Source: Planctomycetota bacterium
GTDB taxonomy: Bacteria > Planctomycetota > Phycisphaerae > Phycisphaerales > SM1A02
Reading direction: 5' to 3'
Assembly (NCBI GenBank): GCA_022566535.1
Contig: JADFIR010000002.1
Location: forward strand, 1 to 64,000
Length of the DNA stretch: 64,000 nt
The notes beneath the pieces were generated by a model. That model worked only from the letters and a program-made list of their open reading frames with translations. It ran no database searches and was not told where the DNA came from. The translations under genes and the position numbers were made by a program. Positions within the stretch are counted from its first letter, which is position 1; each line of letters begins with the position of its first letter. Positions 5,994-19,110 of the stretch are shown in pieces.

Positions 5994-7091
5994 TCAGGTG
6001 GGGGTGATCTTCACCAGCCCGAAACCGACCAACTCCTTGAGTAGGTCCATCGATCTCGCCTCCAGGTTCTCGGCTTCAAATTCGATGTAGCCGATGCTCT
6101 GGAAGTTCGTGGGGAAGTGGATGCCCTTCTCCTTGAATATGACTATTCGGTCGCCATAGGCAAAGGACGATGCCCCAAGTTCATGGACTACGTTCTCACT
6201 TGCTCGCCATATTTCGCTGCCGTCCGCATCAAAGAACTGTTCGTCCTTCGTGAAGATCAGTATCGCGGAGCCGCAAGCCTCCATCGTTTCCTTGACCTTC
6301 TGTGGGATTGGCCGACCGAGGTTCGCCTCTTGAGTGGTCACCTTATGGGGAATCTGAAACGAGGTGAGAATGGCCTGTAGCTTCTCCAGCGGGACGCGGT
6401 TCTTTCCGTGACCGATGAAGATCGGCTTAGTAGTTGGAGTTCGCTGATCGTCAGAGCTAAGAGGTGTCGTAGTCCCTTCTTCTTCCACTTGTGCCTCGGT
6501 CTCCACATCAACAACGGCCTCTTCTTCAACAGCACTCTCGTCGGTTTCATCAATGGGCGGGGCATCCACGAGCACATGTGCCGAGCCTCCGATATCACGA
6601 ATAATCCTGACAAAGCGGCCGTTGGCTACAAGAAGCTGACTTGCCTCGGAGGCGTACTCATCCGGAACCTTGTAGCTCGACGTGAGTATCTTGTCGATCA
6701 TCTCCGGCGAAGGAACCTTCTTGTTCGCATAGTCCTCGTAGAACTGCCTGAAGAAAGATGGCGTCCTAGCGGCCTTGACTAAAGCATCTAGACGCTTCTG
6801 TGCAGCCACGGTTTGTGTAGCGTCCTTACCGAGGTTGGTCAACGATATTTCCGAGGCCTTCTCGGTACCTTCAGTGAAGCCGTATCTGTACGAAGAGCTC
6901 AAGAGATCCCGGTAGTTGCTGCTCATTGGCGTGATCCCAATCGCATCGGCTAGGAGCAGTCGATTGAACGGATTGCCTCCCATCTCGTCGGCGATCTTCT
7001 GAGGCAGGACGAGTGTGTCCTCAATGCTGTGCAACGGGAAGTTCCGCCTCTTGGATCGTTTGTTCGGAGCTTTCTTCGCCATTGGAAACAC
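5994..7091 (-). CDS. Nucleotide-binding TIR-like (CAP12/Pycsar effector-type) protein with N-terminal winged-helix-like region
   Basis: C-terminal KPIFIGHGKNRVPLEKLQAIL...SAILIFTKDEQF...ENVVHELGASSFAYGDRIVIFKEKGI, TIR_like (PF10137-type) pattern. Confidence 0.85.
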   Translation of the reverse strand: MFPMAKKAPNKRSKRRNFPLHSIEDTLVLPQKIADEMGGNPFNRLLLADAIGITPMSSNYRDLLSSSYRYGFTEGTEKASEISLTNLGKDATQTVAAQKRLDALVKAARTPSFFRQFYEDYANKKVPSPEMIDKILTSSYKVPDEYASEASQLLVANGRFVRIIRDIGGSAHVLVDAPPIDETDESAVEEEAVVDVETEAQVEEEGTTTPLSSDDQRTPTTKPIFIGHGKNRVPLEKLQAILTSFQIPHKVTTQEANLGRPIPQKVKETMEACGSAILIFTKDEQFFDADGSEIWRASENVVHELGASSFAYGDRIVIFKEKGIHFPTNFQSIGYIEFEAENLEARSMDLLKELVGFGLVKITPT

Positions 7092-8021: not shown

Positions 8022-8822
8022 CTAGGGGGAGGCGAGCCATCGGCCGTGACGAAAGTAGGGTTTCGAGGCGTCCACGCCAAGCATGTCCGCGAGACGATCC
8101 GGGTCAGCCTCGATGAGCGGTTGTCCGTTGGTAAGCAGCAGATCGCTCGACCACGAGCGGTGAGGCCCGGCGAGCAGCGCCGCTTCGAACCGAAGCATGG
8201 TCATCAGATCATTGGGCGACAGCGTGGGCTTGCGCGGGGGGCGATACAACCGGCAGTCTTCAAGGAAACCCCTGACACCGCCTCGCAGCACGTGCCCGTG
8301 CGCTTCGAGCAGTTCCATGGCGCCTGGCCTTGCGAGCGCGGCAAGGGCGCGTGCACCCTGTCCCTTTCGATAGTGGCTTAGCGCTTCGGCGACGGCCAAG
8401 ACGGCGACAGGGTCAAGATCGCCGGCGGGGTTGGTTTGATGGGCACTGCCCACCCCGCCGCGCTGGTCAAGCAAACCGGCCAAAGCCAGCAATCGGCGCT
8501 TGGCCTGGCGGTGGTCCTCAAGGTCGGCAAGAGCCAGGCAGGCGCTGCGACCGAGCCGCGGCTGATCGAGCACCCCGGCGAGAGCGTACAGGCGCTTGGC
8601 CAGATCATGGGGCGGCTGATCGCCAGCGGCGTCGGCGACCTCCTCAGCCAGCTCGAAATACGCCAGTGCATCGGCCGGGTTCAGTGCTTCAAGCCGATCG
8701 AGCCACTCGCCGGAGCCGGCTGAATCATCTGTGGAATCTCGGCTGCCCAAGGTTGTGGACCACGCGATTACACTCAGGGCGGTGACCAACACGATGAGCA
8801 TTGCGGGGCGGGATGGGCTCAT
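8022..8822 (-). CDS. Hypothetical secreted/anchored helical-repeat protein, last gene of the TolQ/ExbD/VWA operon
   Basis: N-terminal hydrophobic segment; start overlaps the stop of the upstream gene by 4 nt. Confidence 0.65.
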   Translation of the reverse strand: MSPSRPAMLIVLVTALSVIAWSTTLGSRDSTDDSAGSGEWLDRLEALNPADALAYFELAEEVADAAGDQPPHDLAKRLYALAGVLDQPRLGRSACLALADLEDHRQAKRRLLALAGLLDQRGGVGSAHQTNPAGDLDPVAVLAVAEALSHYRKGQGARALAALARPGAMELLEAHGHVLRGGVRGFLEDCRLYRPPRKPTLSPNDLMTMLRFEAALLAGPHRSWSSDLLLTNGQPLIEADPDRLADMLGVDASKPYFRHGRWLASP

Positions 8823-11761
8823 TGGTTCGCCTCTGAGGGGTCATTCACGGCCAGTTGCGCCTGCCAGAGCCGGGCGATGGCTCGCTCCACGTCAACTGCC
8901 TGCTCGAGCACATGGGTCATGCCTGCGCGGCGGCGGGCAGACTCGGCCAGGAGGTCCGCCAGCGGTTCACGGAGCTCGGGCTGCTCGGCCACGGCGAGAT
9001 ACGTCATCAGTTCGAGCAGGCCGACTTGCGTCGCCACGAATCGTTGCAACGATCCCTGGGTGAGTCGGAGGCGTACGGCGTGGCGGCGCTGAAGTTCGTT
9101 CAGATCACCCGGCACGGGATCGGCGACGCGCGCCAACGCAGCGCGGTCTCGCCACGCCTTCAATAACCCTTGCGCCACTCCGTGCACAGTCCCGGCGGTA
9201 TCCGAGGCGGACCCGCGCGGCCGCATTGCAGCCTGCCGGTTCAGATAGGATTCGATCACAGCCGCCGTCTGCTGGTCGATCCGGCCAGGGCCCAAGCGCT
9301 GCAAGCTCAGGGCGTGCTCGACCAGACCCAGCCGGGCATCGATCGCCCACGATTCTGAGCGACCCCTTGGCAACAGCCGGCCGGTAAACCGGCCAATAGT
9401 CTCGGCGGTGCGCTGGGAGGCCGATACACCGGGAAACTGATCGAGCATCTGCAGGGCGACATTCGCCCCGGCAGTAAACCGATCGACGACCACTGACTGG
9501 GCCAGTTTCCGCACGTCCTCCCAAGAGCTGTGATAGACCGCGCGAACGAGTGCCTCGGCATCGTTGGGCCCGAGATCGACGTTTGCGGCATTGCGCAGAA
9601 CGCGAAGGTGCTGCAATCTTTCCTCCGTATTGCGTCCACCCTGCTCGAAGGCCACGGCCCATTCGCCATCACGGCCGATCGGCCCACCAGGACGGGTCGG
9701 GTTGACAGACGAGGCGCCGGAGCCCGCAGACGATGCACCATCCGGGCTCGCCACCTCGATCGATTCGAGCCGGTCCAGGAGTTGACGGGCCGACGCCTCC
9801 TCACGGGCAACCATCCATGACGCGGCCTCGTTGAGCCGGCAGGCGATGACCAGTTGATCCATCAACCGGTCAGGATCGCCGGCGAGCGGGCGGTGCAGCT
9901 GCGATTGAGACAACGTCAACCACCGTGCCGCCAGAACGGGATCGACAGGGAGCCCAGGCGCTTCGGCATTTGGCTCGGCCACCGCCCAAGCGGCGTGAGG
10001 CCACCGCTGACTGATGCGATCGGCGATGCGCCGGCGAAACATCCAGTCGCCGTCGCTGGGAAGCACCAGATCGTCGCTGAACCACGAAGCCGCGCCTGAT
10101 TGGGCGAGCAGACTGGTCAACACCCACAGGTCCTGAGTGCTGATGCGCTGGTCGTCTTCAAAGAATTCGCGCAGGCGGTCCTTGACGATACTGCTGGAAT
10201 CAAAGTCCGACATCGATAGCAGACGGCCGAGAACGTTTACCCCGGGACCCGGCCGGGACAGGTCGGTGGAGCTGCGAAGGACAGCCTCTATTCCGAGCAT
10301 CACCGCGGTGCTCAGGCGATCGCCACTGCCCAGCCGGGCCTGGACTGCAATCCAACATTCCCAGAAGTCGTAGATCCGCTCGTCAGACTCCATTATGTCA
10401 ATGAGCGAAGCCACCGTTCCGTCCAGCCATGCTCCGGCCGCAGAGTTGAAGTCGGCGGCTGCTTGCAGCGCGGAACGGTTCAGGGCAATGTCCAGATGCG
10501 TGCGAGCCCGGTCGATTACAGCCGGTGAGAGATTTGCGGTGGAAGTGATCTTGGCCAGAGTCCCGGCCATCCATGCGCCTCGCCAGAGGTCCATCGGGTC
10601 GGCGAGTCGCCCCGATGGAGGCATCAGTGCCATGAGCAATCGATCGGCAACGCTCGGTGAATCGGACGCTTCGTAGAGTGCTTCCAAGATCGCCCGATCG
10701 ATCGCCGCGCGCGTGTCGTCGTCGATCATCGCCCAGCCGGCTCCGACCGTCCGCATGAAATCATCCCAGGCGCGATAGACCGCCTCGGACGGGTCATCGG
10801 AGATCGCGATGCGCCGCGCAACCGTTTCGATCTCTTGGGGCAACTGCGGACATTCGTCGGCAGCACGAGCGGTTTCCGGCGACAGCGCGCGGCCGAGGAA
10901 CGTCGGCGGCTGGGGGAACCTCGCCTGTCGATGCGTCGGTAGCGCGACCGGGCGAGCATCAGCCGCCTTGGTGGGCTCAGCCGGGGTACTGATCCAGGGC
11001 GACTTCAACGGGGGCAACACTGTGGTCTCATCGGCAGGAGTGAAACGGTGCGACTGTCCCGGGAACAATAAGAATCGTCCGGCGACCATAGCCACAAGCA
11101 AGGTGAGTAACCCAAACAACAACGAGAGCTTGATCGTCGTCGAGGCGGTGTCTTGGCGTAATTGCCGCGTGAGCCCGGTGAGCCGTAGCGACTCGGCCTC
11201 CCCCAGCCGCGGGGCGACCGTAGGTAAGGCGGCAACTCGAGCGGCGCCGGAGGTGATCTCGGCTGTCCCCAGGCGCGGTCCACCAGACTTGGCGTACTCA
11301 CTCAAGCCGGCGACGACTCGCATCAAGCCCTGTACGCTCACACCGTAGGCCCCCGCCAGGGCAACCAGCTTGGACCGTGTGTTCGCGTTCCATCCTCCGC
11401 AACCCACCAGCACCGCCAAGACATGGCGGTCAAAATCGGTGAGCGTTTCGGCGGCGATCGAATGGATCACGGCGGGTGCCGGGGCAGGCGGGCTGGATCG
11501 GCTGGTTGGGCTTACTGCGGCAAGTCTCCCCGCGCGCTCGATTGACGCCCCAAGCGTGCCTGCGGCTTGGCGCAGGCGCCGGCGAACCTGCTGGGCCTCT
11601 CGGCTTCGACCGCCGGGATGATGATCGACTTGACGCAGGCGTACTTCAAGGGCGGCGGACACCGAAGACGCGTCACACCTCTGCGACCGCAGACCCAACA
11701 GCCTCAGTGGGTCCGACGAGCTTTCAACCCCGAGGAAGCGCTGGAACGGATCGACCCTCAC
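8819..11761 (-). CDS. Large single-TM hypothetical protein of the TolQ/ExbD/VWA operon
   Basis: 980-aa ORF; N-terminal 'DPFQRFLGVESSSDPLRLLGL' region, one TM (LSLLFGLLTLLVAMVAGRFLLF), long C-terminal domain; 4-nt overlaps at both ends. Confidence 0.75.
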   Translation of the reverse strand: MRVDPFQRFLGVESSSDPLRLLGLRSQRCDASSVSAALEVRLRQVDHHPGGRSREAQQVRRRLRQAAGTLGASIERAGRLAAVSPTSRSSPPAPAPAVIHSIAAETLTDFDRHVLAVLVGCGGWNANTRSKLVALAGAYGVSVQGLMRVVAGLSEYAKSGGPRLGTAEITSGAARVAALPTVAPRLGEAESLRLTGLTRQLRQDTASTTIKLSLLFGLLTLLVAMVAGRFLLFPGQSHRFTPADETTVLPPLKSPWISTPAEPTKAADARPVALPTHRQARFPQPPTFLGRALSPETARAADECPQLPQEIETVARRIAISDDPSEAVYRAWDDFMRTVGAGWAMIDDDTRAAIDRAILEALYEASDSPSVADRLLMALMPPSGRLADPMDLWRGAWMAGTLAKITSTANLSPAVIDRARTHLDIALNRSALQAAADFNSAAGAWLDGTVASLIDIMESDERIYDFWECWIAVQARLGSGDRLSTAVMLGIEAVLRSSTDLSRPGPGVNVLGRLLSMSDFDSSSIVKDRLREFFEDDQRISTQDLWVLTSLLAQSGAASWFSDDLVLPSDGDWMFRRRIADRISQRWPHAAWAVAEPNAEAPGLPVDPVLAARWLTLSQSQLHRPLAGDPDRLMDQLVIACRLNEAASWMVAREEASARQLLDRLESIEVASPDGASSAGSGASSVNPTRPGGPIGRDGEWAVAFEQGGRNTEERLQHLRVLRNAANVDLGPNDAEALVRAVYHSSWEDVRKLAQSVVVDRFTAGANVALQMLDQFPGVSASQRTAETIGRFTGRLLPRGRSESWAIDARLGLVEHALSLQRLGPGRIDQQTAAVIESYLNRQAAMRPRGSASDTAGTVHGVAQGLLKAWRDRAALARVADPVPGDLNELQRRHAVRLRLTQGSLQRFVATQVGLLELMTYLAVAEQPELREPLADLLAESARRRAGMTHVLEQAVDVERAIARLWQAQLAVNDPSEANQ

Positions 11762-14427
11762 GACGGTCGCTCCACAGCCGCTTGATCGGACCGCCGCGAT
11801 CCGGCCGCATCATCGGGTCGATCCTCGCCGGTGCCCGCAGGCCCGATGCGCAGGTCCAGTGCCCGGAGCCGTGACCCCCACGGCTCTGGGCCGTACGTCG
11901 GCGTGAGCTGCTTGTGTTGATCCATCACCGCGCGGGCTCGAGCAGGATCTCTATCCGCAAGCAGGGAAATCAGATGAAACTTCGCTTCGAACCATCGCTG
12001 CGTTCCCACCGCGCTACCCGCCACAAGCGTACGCCAGCATTCCAGCGCGCGATCCACTTTGCCCAGCTTCGCTGAAAGCAGCGCGGCAGCTCGCAGGAAT
12101 CCGGCTTCGGTCGGCCGGGCATTGAGCAAGGTTTCATAAAGCTCAAGCGCAGCCTGGGCGTCATCCAGATCACCGCTGCGCTGCCAGATAAGCATCAACG
12201 CATCGGCGACAGCAGCGTGGTAGGCAACCACATCCCGTCGTTGCAGCGCCTCGGACTTGTCGGCGAATTCGCCAAGGATTCGCATCCCGTGTCGGACCAC
12301 AAGATCCAGATCGGCGCGATCGACATACAGATCCCGCTGCCGCGCTCTGAACCGCAGCAACCCGTAGCGAAACAGACTTCGCTCGGCGAGGCGCGACCAC
12401 ACGGAAGCCTGGTCACGGGCCCAGAGCTCTTGCGCGATCGTATCCGCTGACGCAGAGTCTTCCCCAAGCAGGCGCTCCTGCACCCGGCGATAGTCCAGCT
12501 CATCGTCATACGTTGACAGATCGAACCCTCGCTTGCTTCGCAGCTCGTCGAGCGCGGCGAGGACGATTCCAGCATCGACCCGACGTTCGATGCCATCAGT
12601 CAGCGCAATCTCCAACACACGGCGACACCGCGCAACGTACTGCCCGACGGTCGGGTCGTCGATGGGATCCAGGCGTTGCGCGGCTGATCCAACGAGTGGC
12701 ACGGCGACAGCCAGGTATTCCTTGCCGTACGCCAGGCGCTGCTCGCCCGACGCCGTGCGGAAGAGTTGATAGAGGACCTGGGCGGCCCGCCGCTGGGCTA
12801 TGTCGTAGACCTCGCTGTGGGGAGGGATCGTCAACAAATCCTCGACCACTGTATGTGTTGGCTCCCTGGCCAAGCCGGCGCGCTTGAGGATGAGCTTCGG
12901 GGCATGCCGGCCGGAGGGATAGAGCGCCAGGACGCGATCGATCAGGTCCGACAGCTCCCGACTCAGCGTTTCGTTCCCGTCGGCCTGCACAACCTTGTCC
13001 AACGAAACGACGGCCATCCACAAGGCTTCGGGGGCATCATCGGGCCCAAGCCGCACCGCGGCCAACTGGAACGAATCACGGGCGGCGAGAAAGTGACTCT
13101 GAAAGTAGTGACACCACCCGATCAACCATCGACAGCTCGCGGCCGCCTCCGGGTAGCGATCAGCATCCGCCTCGGCCAGCGCCGCCTCGAACTCGTGGAT
13201 TGCCTGCTGGTAGAGGCGGACAAGTTGCTCGTCGGCTGGCGCCGGGCGGTCGTGCCCGTGAGCCATCCGGACATGGTCGTAGTGTTGGACGCCTTTGACG
13301 TACCGGATCGCGAATCCGGAATCTCCCATGGCGCCGACGCCGTAGCGCTCGGCGAGGTCCAGTACCTGTTGCAGCTCACCTCGTGCGGCGAGGGCAGTGA
13401 CGGCGAAGCGGGCAAGCTCGGCCGCCGGCCGGCTTTCGGGCTTAGCTTCCAGCGCGTGCACCGCCGCCAACCGAAGCCACGCCAGCGGCGGCGGCCTTGC
13501 AGCATTCGACTCGTCGGCGAGGATTGCCCTGGCCGAGCGATACTCGCCGTGCTCTAGATAGACAGCGATCTTCCATACGCCAACGCGCTCGCGCAGCGGA
13601 GCGTACGCTCGGTCATGCTCCAAAAGCTCGATCCATTTGATTGCGGTGGCCGATGATGAGGTAAGGGATTTGCACAAGGCCATGCCCAGAATCGAGCGCG
13701 CCACCGCTTCGGAGGAGCGGAGATCCACCGAGATCTCCTGCGGTTGCGGGCGGGAAGACTCCGCCTCCACCAACTGTGCGAACAGTTCCTCGGCCACCTT
13801 GGCATTGTCCGGCCGATGGTGTAGCCAGGACTTGTAGTACAGGGCCCAGGCGTTGAGGAAGGTGCATTGAGCGAGAAGTCGCTGCAAGCGCTGGGCTTGG
13901 TCAGCGAGCATGTCGGCGGCGCTTCCGCTGGCTCGCGCCAGTCGGCGGTCGGCCAGCTGCACTCGCTCCTCTATTTGCCCGCGCAACTGATACAACTGCG
14001 GAATGATCTCCGAAAGCGTTTCCTTGGCCTGGGCGATCTCCTCGTCACTGCTCTGGCGCAATCGATGGTCTTCTGCGATCTGCTCCGCCGCGCGATAAGC
14101 CCCTCGCAGCAGGGCGAGACGAAGCTCTTGGCCGGTGTTCGGGGCAACGGAGGAAAGCAGCCGCCGGCTACGCTGTTCCAGGTGCACACGAGCAGCGGGA
14201 TCATCGGTCGATTCCAGGAGCTGGGCGTAGATACCGACCAGCCGAAGGATCAACTCCTGCCGCTCAGGGCCCGCGAGATCATCCAACTGCTGCTCGAGAT
14301 GGACGGCCAGCAATTGCCGCAGCCCATGGCGCTGCAGGTAGGCTGCCACCTCGTCGGCACGCGCGTTACCAGACAGCAACAGTGCGGCGGACGCGATCAG
14401 CAGCAGCACCCTACTCGTCGGGGACAT
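11758..14427 (-). CDS. TPR-like helical repeat secreted protein
   Basis: Signal peptide VLLLIASAALLLSGNARADE; TPR-like periodicity (AQAALELYETLLNARPTEAGFLRAAALLSAKLGKVDRALECWRTL). Confidence 0.75.
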   Translation of the reverse strand: MSPTSRVLLLIASAALLLSGNARADEVAAYLQRHGLRQLLAVHLEQQLDDLAGPERQELILRLVGIYAQLLESTDDPAARVHLEQRSRRLLSSVAPNTGQELRLALLRGAYRAAEQIAEDHRLRQSSDEEIAQAKETLSEIIPQLYQLRGQIEERVQLADRRLARASGSAADMLADQAQRLQRLLAQCTFLNAWALYYKSWLHHRPDNAKVAEELFAQLVEAESSRPQPQEISVDLRSSEAVARSILGMALCKSLTSSSATAIKWIELLEHDRAYAPLRERVGVWKIAVYLEHGEYRSARAILADESNAARPPPLAWLRLAAVHALEAKPESRPAAELARFAVTALAARGELQQVLDLAERYGVGAMGDSGFAIRYVKGVQHYDHVRMAHGHDRPAPADEQLVRLYQQAIHEFEAALAEADADRYPEAAASCRWLIGWCHYFQSHFLAARDSFQLAAVRLGPDDAPEALWMAVVSLDKVVQADGNETLSRELSDLIDRVLALYPSGRHAPKLILKRAGLAREPTHTVVEDLLTIPPHSEVYDIAQRRAAQVLYQLFRTASGEQRLAYGKEYLAVAVPLVGSAAQRLDPIDDPTVGQYVARCRRVLEIALTDGIERRVDAGIVLAALDELRSKRGFDLSTYDDELDYRRVQERLLGEDSASADTIAQELWARDQASVWSRLAERSLFRYGLLRFRARQRDLYVDRADLDLVVRHGMRILGEFADKSEALQRRDVVAYHAAVADALMLIWQRSGDLDDAQAALELYETLLNARPTEAGFLRAAALLSAKLGKVDRALECWRTLVAGSAVGTQRWFEAKFHLISLLADRDPARARAVMDQHKQLTPTYGPEPWGSRLRALDLRIGPAGTGEDRPDDAAGSRRSDQAAVERPS

Positions 14428-14833
14428 ACGTCACCTGCTCAAATCCCGCATCCCGCGCCGCCTGAATCGCAGCGGCTGCGAAGCCGACCGGCACACCGTC
14501 GGATACCTTGACGAACAGACCGGCCGGCATATACAAGTGGTGAAGCGCGGCCAGCAGCTCACGCTTGCTCCTGAAGATCTCAGTTCCCAGGCGGTAGGCG
14601 GGAGTTCCGTCCACTAAGAGCACCTCAACGATCTGTGGCTGAAAGTCGGCGGCAGGTCCCGCGGCGCTGTCCGCACGGGTCTGAAGCGATGGGCTCAGTC
14701 GATCCTCAGGCTGGGCCAGCACCATCGTCACCATGAAATACATCAGCAGCAGAAACGTCACATCGATCATGCTGGCGAGATTCAGGGTGATGCTCCGAGG
14801 ACGGCGTCGAGATGGCTTGCGCTGGATTCTCAT
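14411..14833 (-). CDS. ExbD/TolR biopolymer transport protein
   Basis: LNLASMIDVTFLLLMYFMVTMVL ExbD/TolR TM signature. Confidence 0.85.
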   Translation of the reverse strand: MRIQRKPSRRRPRSITLNLASMIDVTFLLLMYFMVTMVLAQPEDRLSPSLQTRADSAAGPAADFQPQIVEVLLVDGTPAYRLGTEIFRSKRELLAALHHLYMPAGLFVKVSDGVPVGFAAAAIQAARDAGFEQVTYVPDE

Positions 14834-14847
14834 CGCGGCGGCGCCTA

Positions 14848-15273
14848 TCAGGGGACTTGCGTGGCCAACCTGGCCGAGCCGACGCCCAACGATCTGAGCA
14901 TGGTCACGACCTGGTTCAATCGGGCGGAGTCGGCGTCGCGATCTGCGCGAATCAGCATCTTGAGTTGCCGCGGCGGGCGATCCGGTGAGCGCCGGATCTC
15001 CTGGTGAACAATCTCCTCCAGCCTGCGCAGATCAACGGTTCGATCGGAGACAATGATCGCACCCTCGCGGGTGATGTTGATGATGAGACCGGCTTCATCC
15101 GGAGCTTCGTACTGCTCACCTTTCTCGATAGGAAGATCAATCTCCGCGCGGGTCAGCCGAGCGAACCGCGCGGTCGTCATAAAGAAGATGATCAGCAGGA
15201 ACACCACGTCGATCATCGGCGTGATCTCCACGGAAACGCTGCGACTGCGATACTTCGGTGAGCTGAACTTCAC
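14848..15273 (-). CDS. ExbD/TolR biopolymer transport protein
   Basis: VEITPMIDVVFLLIIFFMTTARF ExbD/TolR signature; 4-nt overlap with TolQ gene. Confidence 0.9.
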   Translation of the reverse strand: MKFSSPKYRSRSVSVEITPMIDVVFLLIIFFMTTARFARLTRAEIDLPIEKGEQYEAPDEAGLIINITREGAIIVSDRTVDLRRLEEIVHQEIRRSPDRPPRQLKMLIRADRDADSARLNQVVTMLRSLGVGSARLATQVP

Positions 15274-16073
15274 GATGACACTCCACCGCCGGCGCCCGCC
15301 GCAGCACCTCGACTCGAAGTCGGCGACGCCGGCTGCGCAGCCGAGGCAACAGGTTTCGGCCGCGCCGCGGGACCTGCCGGCCGGGATACACCCGTTGATT
15401 CCAGGTGAAGGACCAGTCGCTCAATCTCCAGCGCTGCTTCGGAGGCAAATGCGTCGATGCGGTTACCGAAATACCGGTACAGCGCGATGCAGGGAATGGC
15501 CAGGATCAACCCCATCAGCGTCGTTACCAGGGCCAGACTGATGTTGCTGGCAAGCTGTTCATGGTTCGGCGTGGCGGTTCGGGACAGCGTCTCGAAAGCG
15601 CCCACCATGCCCAGCACGGTCCCCAACAGGCCCAGCAGCGGCGCGATCGAACCAATCACACCCAGGGCGTCCGTCGAGCGGTAGAGTCTTGCGGTCTGGT
15701 CCTCCCCGGCCTCTTCGATGGCGTTCTTGATCTCGAAAGCCCCGAACGCGGACTTTTGATATCGCGTGATCCCGGCTGCCAAGATGCGGGTGAGATACGA
15801 GTCATTGTCCGGATTTAAGCAGTACTCCAAAGCCGCGTTCACCCGGCCCTGCGCGAGCACCTCGTCGAGATGCTCCAGTTGCGCTGCCGGGATCAGCGCG
15901 CCTCGCCTGATCTGCACCAGGTGCATGATGATGAGCGCCAACGCCAACACACTCAACCCAAGGATGACATATCCCACCGCCCCCCCGCTTTGAATGGTGT
16001 CCCACCAGGTGGCGCCGGGCCCATCGGCGTCCGCCTGGGCCAAGACGATGGTGATCGCGCGCGTAGCAGTCAT
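15270..16073 (-). CDS. MotA/TolQ/ExbB proton channel family protein
   Basis: GVIGSIAPLLGLLGTVLGMVGAFETLS...LASNISLALVTTLMGLILAIPCIALYRYF. Confidence 0.92.
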   Translation of the reverse strand: MTATRAITIVLAQADADGPGATWWDTIQSGGAVGYVILGLSVLALALIIMHLVQIRRGALIPAAQLEHLDEVLAQGRVNAALEYCLNPDNDSYLTRILAAGITRYQKSAFGAFEIKNAIEEAGEDQTARLYRSTDALGVIGSIAPLLGLLGTVLGMVGAFETLSRTATPNHEQLASNISLALVTTLMGLILAIPCIALYRYFGNRIDAFASEAALEIERLVLHLESTGVSRPAGPAARPKPVASAAQPASPTSSRGAAAGAGGGVSS

Positions 16074-17218
16074 TCGGATTCCTCACGTTGCCCCAAGCCG
16101 GCTTCGGGTTGCAGCGAATTGATTCGCAGTTCCCCGACCGCGTGCACCGGATGATTGGGAAAGCTTCGTTGAAGTTCCACAGCGAGACCGGCCGCAGCGT
16201 CGGCGTCACCGGACTGCCGCAGGGCGTCCGTCACATAGGCGAGCGCAAGTCCCGCAAGATAGGGCTGGCTACGGCCGAAGCGCGCGGGCAGGTGGATCAG
16301 GCTCACCATGCCTTGTTGGCGCCGCCCGATGCCGCTGTCGCGAAGCAGCGACAGGCCGATGTGAAACCGGCCCCAGGCTTCGGCCCACGCCGGCAGCGTT
16401 GGGATCGCACGCAACAGACGTTGCCGGGCGGTCTGGCGGTTGCCTGGGGCGACGGCACCGCATTCAACCAGCAATTGGAGCAATTCGACGCCCTGATGGT
16501 CCGGCAGGTCAAGCTGCCCCGTCCTGGGGGACGCTCGACCAAGCGCCTGCATTACGGTCAGGCGATACAGCCCGGCAAGTGCTGCGACCACCTCATCGCC
16601 CCGGGCGTCGTATCCGGCCAGCCCATTCTCCAGCGACTCCAGCAGCGGCATCGGCAGCCACGCGGGGGCCAGCTGGGGGCACAACGACGTCGGCACATCG
16701 ATCACTACCGGCAGCACCGCATAGCTGACCGTGGTTACCTTCGCCCGCCGAAGCCGACCGACCTCCAAGGCGGGGATGACCGCCCGGGCATGGTCGGCAC
16801 GGGCTAATCGGCATCGCAGCAGACCCTCGGCCACGACGAGGGCTGTCTCATGCGTGTGCCCCCGGTACCGCTCAAACAGCCGCTCGAGCAGCGGCTCCGC
16901 GAGGGCCGTGTCGTTGCGCTCAACACGGCTGCGGGCACGCCACAGATCAACCGCCACCACCATCCGTGATTCAAGCGTCGGCTCGTGGATCTCACTGACA
17001 ACTCGGCGAACCCGGTCCCAGGGAATGACGCGCACATCGCCGAGCCCGCTACGGATGGTGACGCCCGCATCATCGATGATCGTGATGTTCCCCTCCAGCG
17101 CCGGCTCGGTCCCCCGCCGCTCGACCACGTCGCCCAGCGCTGCCTGGGCCATGAGCCCGACGAAACAAACTAGAGCTCGAACAAGAGACGTCATCGCATT
17201 ACCACTGCTCGGATTCAA
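16070..17218 (-). CDS. Hypothetical secreted protein of the TolQ/ExbD/VWA operon
   Basis: Signal peptide MTSLVRALVCFVGLMAQAALGD; overlaps both neighbours (start possibly 17194). Confidence 0.7.
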   Translation of the reverse strand: MNPSSGNAMTSLVRALVCFVGLMAQAALGDVVERRGTEPALEGNITIIDDAGVTIRSGLGDVRVIPWDRVRRVVSEIHEPTLESRMVVAVDLWRARSRVERNDTALAEPLLERLFERYRGHTHETALVVAEGLLRCRLARADHARAVIPALEVGRLRRAKVTTVSYAVLPVVIDVPTSLCPQLAPAWLPMPLLESLENGLAGYDARGDEVVAALAGLYRLTVMQALGRASPRTGQLDLPDHQGVELLQLLVECGAVAPGNRQTARQRLLRAIPTLPAWAEAWGRFHIGLSLLRDSGIGRRQQGMVSLIHLPARFGRSQPYLAGLALAYVTDALRQSGDADAAAGLAVELQRSFPNHPVHAVGELRINSLQPEAGLGQREESE

Positions 17219-18251
17219 CGAACCGATAGACGCCGCCGGACCGTCTGGCGATGTCCTTGAGCTGGTCCTGGCTGGCCGGGTCGCCGAAGGCGATGGTGTT
17301 TATCGCGACGCGCTTGCCACGGCTGTTGAGTGCCGAAACCATTCCAGCCGTGCCTTGGGGAATCTCGCCGTCGGTCAGAAAGAAGATGACGTCCGGGCGA
17401 TGTGCCAGCGAGAAGACCTGGAGGAAAGCCGGCTCGGGTCTCGTCCCCCCACCTGGATCAACGCGGTTGAGCCAGCGTATGAGGCTGCTGATCGTGGTCA
17501 CGCGGGCGCGGGTCCAATCGCGCTGGATCGGCGGGGCGGCGATGTTCGACGAGAACAGCACGATATAAAAGGATGCATAGTCGGGAAGGGTTTCGATCGA
17601 CCGAGCAAGCTCGCGCATGGCGATGTCGATCTTGCGGTCATGGCCCATTGACCCGGAGACATCCACGATGTAGGCAAAGCGCGTCCCCCGCGAGCTGACG
17701 CCGAAGAACGTGGTTCCCGCTGCGCCGCCTCCTAACGCCTCCACGCCCCCCTCCCCGGCGCCCGACCCGCCAAGCGTTGGGATGGACCCGGCGGCTGAGA
17801 TCTCCAGGCTGGCCATGGGGGCGTCGATATCCAGCTCGCTTATGGGGTTGTCATCCGGCAGGTCGTCGAACGATGAAATGATCTGCGGCGTCAAATCCTC
17901 GAACGCGAAGTCCGCAAGCTGCGTCAACTCCTGCTCGGTAAGAACGGCAAACTCAATACTGACCGGCTGCACACCCGGCCCCGGGGGCACCGCACGACGA
18001 ATGAAGTTCAGATACAGCATCAGCCCAAGATGGACCAGTATTGAGACCGAGACACCCATGATCAACAGATGGCGCCGGCGACGCCGCCCCAGCAGCTCAC
18101 GCTGCTCCTCCAGCCGTCGAACGCTCTGCTGCAACTCGGCGATGGTGGCGCGAAGGTGGCCAGGCTGCTGCGATTCGTGACGTGGCTCGTTCACCGATTC
18201 TCCATACGAAGGAAGGTTCGGCCGGTTTCGTCCGGCACCGGTCACGCACAT
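17199..18251 (-). CDS. Membrane-anchored von Willebrand factor A domain protein with TonB-like N-terminus
   Basis: TM LLIMGVSVSILVHLGLMLYLNFI; MIDAS FAYIVDVSGSMGHDRKID; VIFFLTDGEIPQ. ORF extends to 18545 but overlaps pyrH; start at 18251 (ATG) or 18194 (GTG) likely. Confidence 0.85.
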   Translation of the reverse strand: MCVTGAGRNRPNLPSYGESVNEPRHESQQPGHLRATIAELQQSVRRLEEQRELLGRRRRRHLLIMGVSVSILVHLGLMLYLNFIRRAVPPGPGVQPVSIEFAVLTEQELTQLADFAFEDLTPQIISSFDDLPDDNPISELDIDAPMASLEISAAGSIPTLGGSGAGEGGVEALGGGAAGTTFFGVSSRGTRFAYIVDVSGSMGHDRKIDIAMRELARSIETLPDYASFYIVLFSSNIAAPPIQRDWTRARVTTISSLIRWLNRVDPGGGTRPEPAFLQVFSLAHRPDVIFFLTDGEIPQGTAGMVSALNSRGKRVAINTIAFGDPASQDQLKDIARRSGGVYRFVESEQW

Positions 18252-18351
18252 AATAGGAGGGTTGAAATGATCGTCGGCGAGACGGCCCAGCTTGACCCGG
18301 CTGGTGATAGCCTGTCCAATTCGGCGGATATGCTTACGCGGGATCATGATC

Positions 18352-19110
18352 ATGCCTGATGAGGCCACGCCCCGATACCGGCGTGTTATTCTGAAAATCA
18401 GCGGTGAGAGCTTCGCCAAGCCGGGCGACTTCGGGATCGACCCCGAGGAGCTGAGCCTGATGGCCCAGGAGATCGCCGACGCGGCGAAGCTCGGCACCCA
18501 GATCGCCGTGGTGGTCGGAGGAGGCAATATGATCCGCGGATCCATGCTGACTGAGCACGGTCAGATCGACCAGTCCACCGCCGATTACATGGGCATGCTG
18601 GCCACGGTCATCAACAGTGTGGCGCTGCGAGAGGCCTTGACCGGCGCGGGTCAGAGTTGCCGGTTGATGTCGGCGATCGACATTCCAGCCGTCGGCGAGA
18701 CGTTCATTCGGGCTCGGGCTCTGCGCCATTTCGAGAAGGGTCGAACGCTCATCCTGGCGGCGGGAACGGGAAATCCTTTCTTCACGACCGACACCTGCGC
18801 CGCCCTGCGCGGAGCTGAGCTGAACGCCGACGTCCTGCTCAAGGCGACCAAGGTTGATGGTGTGTATACGTCTGATCCGAAGAAGGACCCCCACGCGACG
18901 CGCTATGCGAAGCTGAGCTTCACAGAGGCGATCGAGAAGCAGCTGGGGGTGATGGATCTCACCGCCCTGACGATGTGTATGGAGCACAACTTGCCGGTGA
19001 TCGTGTTCGACTTCAAGACTGCCGGGAACGTCCGCCGGGCCATGGCCGGCGAGCACATCGGTACGCTCATTGCCGGTAAGCGGGACCTCGGTGTTGCGTC
19101 GCAAGGCTGA
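18352..19110 (+). CDS. pyrH: UMP kinase
   Basis: RRVILKISGESFAKPGDFGID...VVVGGGNMIRG...ATKVDGVYTSDPKKDPHATRY; adjacent to frr. Confidence 0.95.
   Translation: MPDEATPRYRRVILKISGESFAKPGDFGIDPEELSLMAQEIADAAKLGTQIAVVVGGGNMIRGSMLTEHGQIDQSTADYMGMLATVINSVALREALTGAGQSCRLMSAIDIPAVGETFIRARALRHFEKGRTLILAAGTGNPFFTTDTCAALRGAELNADVLLKATKVDGVYTSDPKKDPHATRYAKLSFTEAIEKQLGVMDLTALTMCMEHNLPVIVFDFKTAGNVRRAMAGEHIGTLIAGKRDLGVASQG

Follow-up and report, generated by a model that had tools for sequence, protein, structure and literature searches.

A conserved eight-gene TolQ/ExbD operon of Planctomycetota with a VWA protein as predicted force transducer

A tightly packed operon in a planctomycetotal genome joins a TolQ/ExbD-type motor to a membrane-anchored VWA protein and to four further proteins, here called B, F, G and H. 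Its sequence suggests a trans-envelope machine of the TonB/TolA kind, tipped by a VWA domain, which probably serves energised, Tol-like maintenance or constriction of the envelope. By the features tested, the predicted proteins make the locus a member, in extended form, of the vWA force transducers proposed by Williams-Jones et al. (MBE 2025; PMC12204202). New here are the set of eight genes, which includes G, H and B, the synteny with pyrH, the existence of two paralogous systems and the independence from Ton and TolB.

Results

Layout of the operon

The window, that is, the whole 64,000-nucleotide stretch analysed, comprises positions 1-64000 of contig C24 of a draft genome (G000; 3.36 Mb, 86 contigs). 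Its ORF listing contains eight minus-strand frames running from 18194 to 8022 in the order VWA-TM, B, TolQ/ExbB, ExbD, ExbD, F, G and H (Table 1). Six of the seven junctions overlap (8819/8822, 11758/11761, 14411/14427, 15270/15273, 16070/16073 and 17199/17218), and the remaining one, between the two ExbD genes, is a gap of 14 nt. The first-pass annotation had placed all eight genes and their overlaps as we find them; only its start for the VWA gene, 18251, is revised, as a GTG at 18194 is likelier, with GGAG just upstream and the N-termini of relatives beginning at about that point. Pfam assigns VWA_3 (1.4e-11), MotA_ExbB (9.4e-30) and ExbD twice (2.6e-10 and 3.1e-24), and gives no family above the cut-off for B, F, G or H. 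A sigma-70 promoter scan revealed no promoter.

Table 1. Features of the eight-gene operon and its divergent neighbour in the window
Feature	Positions	Strand	Basis
VWA force transducer (predicted)	17199..18194; longer frame to 18251	-	Pfam VWA_3, TM and MIDAS motifs
B	16070..17218	-	signal peptide, short beta region, then helical (weak TPR), periplasmic; no known family
TolQ/ExbB-like proton-channel subunit	15270..16073	-	Pfam MotA_ExbB, channel Thr
ExbD/TolR-like subunit 1	14848..15273	-	Pfam ExbD; TM aspartate in MIDVV
ExbD/TolR-like subunit 2, divergent	14411..14833	-	Pfam ExbD; TM aspartate in MIDVT
F	11758..14427	-	signal peptide and ~860-residue TPR-type helical repeat, periplasmic
G	8819..11761	-	cytosolic N-domain, one TM at ~residue 210-235, large periplasmic C-domain; no known family
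H	8022..8822	-	N-terminal signal/anchor helix and helical domain
pyrH	18346..19110	+	conserved divergent neighbour, locus marker

The divergent pyrH gene marks the locus but probably does not belong to the machine. Between it and the operon, a 30-codon sORF (18267-18359, plus strand) has a strong AGGAGG and a stop codon that overlaps the pyrH start; it is mostly identical in two aligned records of the same genus, and none was seen in the other genera checked. On the other side, the operon adjoins a gene for a TIR-domain protein of the CAP12/Pycsar-effector type (5994-7034, minus strand; PF10137, 2e-14; PADLOC PDC-S35, 7e-16), possibly a defence gene. For the eight operon proteins themselves, the PADLOC models gave no relevant match, and a defence system (Zorya) was set aside on this ground.

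Conservation of the locus

A contig search with one sequence returned four near-identical loci. Across the order, the VWA protein is present in 57 of 61 genomes, some of these matches belonging to a second, paralogous system. All eight genes occur in a single order and on a single strand at 31 of 42 homologous loci, most of the incomplete ones being cut by a contig edge or having a diverged G or H; neighbourhood conservation across Planctomycetota was a check that the first-pass annotation had proposed. At the 38 loci where the stretch is long enough to include pyrH, this gene is divergent without exception. The conserved gene order beside it spans the organism's own family and three more families of the order. 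Conservation on this scale shows that the operon is not a chance arrangement. In one genome (G035) the system is present and an assembly gap (N) covers the VWA gene and part of B. In families f5 and f6 the second system alone was seen.

A complete eight-gene copy (L099) occurs outside the class, in genome G178, where pyrH does not adjoin it and the G protein is of weak similarity (35 bits). Apart from this copy, the phylum sample (n=151) showed G in no order but the organism's own.

The VWA protein

The VWA protein consists of a short cytosolic N-terminus, one TM segment with an S-x3-H motif (SILVH in the window), a variable, Gly-rich linker of ~100 residues and a C-terminal VWA domain, which is also supported by PDB profile matches. 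As the first-pass annotation had proposed, TM segment and MIDAS go together: the MIDAS is complete in the window (DVSGS...T...D), and D/S/S/T/D is found in 32/32 rows of this system.

Of the 62 VWAs near a TolQ, 58 carry S-x3-H; of the 15 that have no TolQ nearby, 8 do (Fisher p 6e-4), and these eight include one contig-edge case and the two motor-less loci. Two of the four exceptions carry A-x3-H (L089), and in the other two (L094 and L097) the script probably picked the wrong TM segment. The motif His is conserved in 43 of 44 aligned rows; the VWA of L061, on a contig that ends before TolQ, has N in its place. Separately, family f32 has four VWA-TM proteins with no TolQ match in the fetched stretch, three with S-x3-H (L105, L109 and L111) and one with T-x3-H (L107), which raises the question of whether they are orphan transducers.

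The motor and loci without it

The channel Thr residues of TolQ are invariant in 46/46 aligned rows, and the TM aspartates of both ExbDs (MIDVV and MIDVT) are invariant too. Both ExbDs match ExbD alone in Pfam and lack the OmpA peptidoglycan-binding domain expected on the B subunit of a MotAB stator; the flagellar MotA/MotB pair of the genome lies on contig C4. Elsewhere in the same genome, an orphan ExbB-like gene (L081:8429-9169) lies near a prepilin-like gene and outside both VWA systems.

At two loci, L068 and L077, TolQ and ExbD are missing and the other genes, VWA, F, G and H among them, are kept; in the former, B and F are fused in one ORF (L068:6768-10286), the TolQ/ExbD genes once between them being gone. 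Both genomes carry TolQ-ExbD-ExbD trios elsewhere, and the motor may act in trans for these loci. The VWA protein and TolQ/ExbD are conserved together, and a dissociation of the two, which the first-pass annotation had named as fatal to its reading, is not what we find. In G028, one of the two motor-less genomes, a trio stands by itself, and the tree places its TolQ among those of this system, though on a long branch.

Such motor-less loci, together with the abundance of VWA-domain proteins in planctomycetes, would fit a VWA protein that does not transduce force and instead serves, expressed along with the motor, as a regulator or chaperone-like scaffold akin to Bat/aerotolerance proteins. We regard this as improbable, as VWAs associated with a motor retain S-x3-H, which is missing from TM-VWAs in other contexts (L083, L090 and L098).

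The accessory proteins

The profile of F matches designed TPRs (9.4e-13), and B shows a weak TPR in profile search. Pfam searches with every family member gave nothing convincing for B, G or H, nor did PDB profile searches for B and G. The N-terminal cytosolic domain of G looks J-like by eye, for which Pfam gives no confirmation. AlphaFold2 models of B and H, built from four near-identical sequences, are mostly helices with a pLDDT of ~41 and carry no weight. Four relatives of H (L057, L060, L064 and L065) have an inserted run of several CxxC pairs, zinc-ribbon-like, that is missing from the H protein of the window.

A second, paralogous system

Contig C1 of the same genome carries a paralogous operon for VWA, TolQ, ExbD, ExbD and an 861-aa TPR protein. 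Relatives have this operon too, in some cases with a gene for a B-like protein lying between those for VWA and TolQ. F is homologous to the 861-aa protein (99.2%, E 9e-20), and homology between B and the B-like protein is weak. A tree, whose rooting is uncertain, sets the TolQs of one system apart from those of the other, and G178 has one of each; the two paralogous systems are old. At two loci (L091 and L093) the second-system cluster has two tandem VWA transducers and lies downstream of an ABC-transporter gene set that is GldG-like by eye.

Relation to known systems

Ton (ExbBD-TonB) has in common with the operon the motor and the S-x3-H TM segment, and differs in that the present genome has no match to TonB_C or to the TBDT plug (0 each, from Pfam models on a draft assembly). 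The Ton-like TM motif and motor would suit an energised uptake system in which the VWA protein, like TonB, opens transporters of the outer membrane. This we consider very unlikely: the genome itself lacks both domains, family f2 genomes without TBDT (98-100% complete) keep the operon, and TonB_C, where present, lies at other loci. A Ton reading was rejected because TonB_C and the plug are missing from this genome and from near-complete f2 genomes.

Canonical Tol-Pal was likewise rejected, since TolB_N is found in none of the 61 genomes of the order, as judged by Pfam on draft genomes, with E. coli, Caulobacter and Bacteroides matching as controls. The operon resembles Tol-Pal (TolQRA-TolB-Pal, CpoB) in its TolQ/TolR-like motor, its TM-anchored transducer and its TPR protein (as CpoB), and differs in the missing TolB, the VWA domain in place of the TolA C-domain and the two ExbDs. 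OmpA-domain proteins occur in all genomes, but Pfam finds none inside the operon; the OmpA-type protein of the present genome, with a lipobox-like N-terminus, is encoded on contig C57, unlinked to the operon. The first-pass annotation's observation that the operon has no TonB, TolB or Pal agrees with these searches.

The AglRQS-Glt gliding machine of Myxococcus combines one TolQ with two TolR homologues and TPR proteins, the same arrangement as here, except that in the operon the VWA protein is the TM-anchored part. VWA domains, moreover, frequently bind ligands or surfaces. The operon could accordingly be a gliding or surface-adhesion motor that moves a VWA-linked adhesion complex, and gliding is brought up as a possible function of vWA transducers in PMC12204202. 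We nevertheless think it unlikely, as the genome has flagellar genes and an operon that is near-universal in its order and vertically kept beside pyrH would be unusual for a motility add-on.

Discussion

The mechanism that we infer, from motor activity and VWA docking to the partner's identity and the envelope role, would run as follows. TolQ and the two ExbDs would make up an inner-membrane rotary motor powered by the pmf, and the S-x3-H face of the single VWA TM segment would dock on the side of this motor. The Gly-rich linker would carry force across the periplasm, and the metal-binding MIDAS of the VWA tip would grip a partner in the periplasm or the outer membrane; the simplest candidates are the TPR protein F and B, or else a ligand that they present. 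G, anchored in the inner membrane with a large periplasmic part, and H may be dedicated accessory parts. The job would be energised maintenance or constriction of the envelope in organisms where no TolB is found and TonB/TBDT are often missing.

This Tol-like role is a first guess, favoured because TolB, TonB and TBDT are undetected in the genome and the operon is kept vertically. It is an argument from absence, and the occurrence of the second system alone in f5 and f6 weighs against it. Against a transducer machine as such stand the loss of TolQ/ExbD at L068 and L077 and the S-x3-H VWAs of f32 with no TolQ within reach. A wider reading is possible but doubtful: a distinct Planctomycetota machine, predating the separation of the classes, would take over the tasks of Tol-Pal with neither TolA nor TolB and with no Pal encoded in the operon, by means of the VWA metal grip and a dedicated set of large periplasmic proteins, B, F, G and H.

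Williams-Jones et al. (PMC12204202) described SHLS-bearing vWA transducers in the PVC group, including Planctomycetes, whose genes adjoin a TPR gene, a tolQ-like gene and two unlike tolR-like genes. In the sections of that paper considered here, the transducer has a TMH with a conserved S/H, a disordered domain II of ~100 residues with a motor box, and a C-terminal vWA; S-x3-H is the core of the SHLS motif, through which TonB and TolA bind their motors, and coupling to the motor was modelled with AF3 for the protein class. The present locus shares the S/H TM motif, the vWA fold and the synteny of tolQ-like, two tolR-like and TPR genes, whereas the same sections make no mention of B, G, H, the eight-gene order, the pyrH synteny or paralogous systems. 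The first-pass idea that a VWA domain replaces TonB as force transducer is therefore not undescribed, but it is well supported, because S-x3-H, MIDAS, channel residues, synteny, the second operon and the lack of TonB_C, plug and TolB_N all point to it. As the published proposal, in those sections, is computational, leaves function unassigned and reports no phenotype, the cluster has not already been characterised, and the eight-gene form with its large envelope proteins, like its job, seems undescribed.

Where the 2025 proposal concerned a small cluster of motor and TPR genes, the present analysis extends it to a machine of eight genes in fixed order, with its parts named, whose function is therefore testable by deletion. 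Planctomycetes have an unusual envelope and unusual division, and for them a VWA-tipped, near-universal and vertically kept motor operon offers a specific candidate route by which force may reach the outer membrane.
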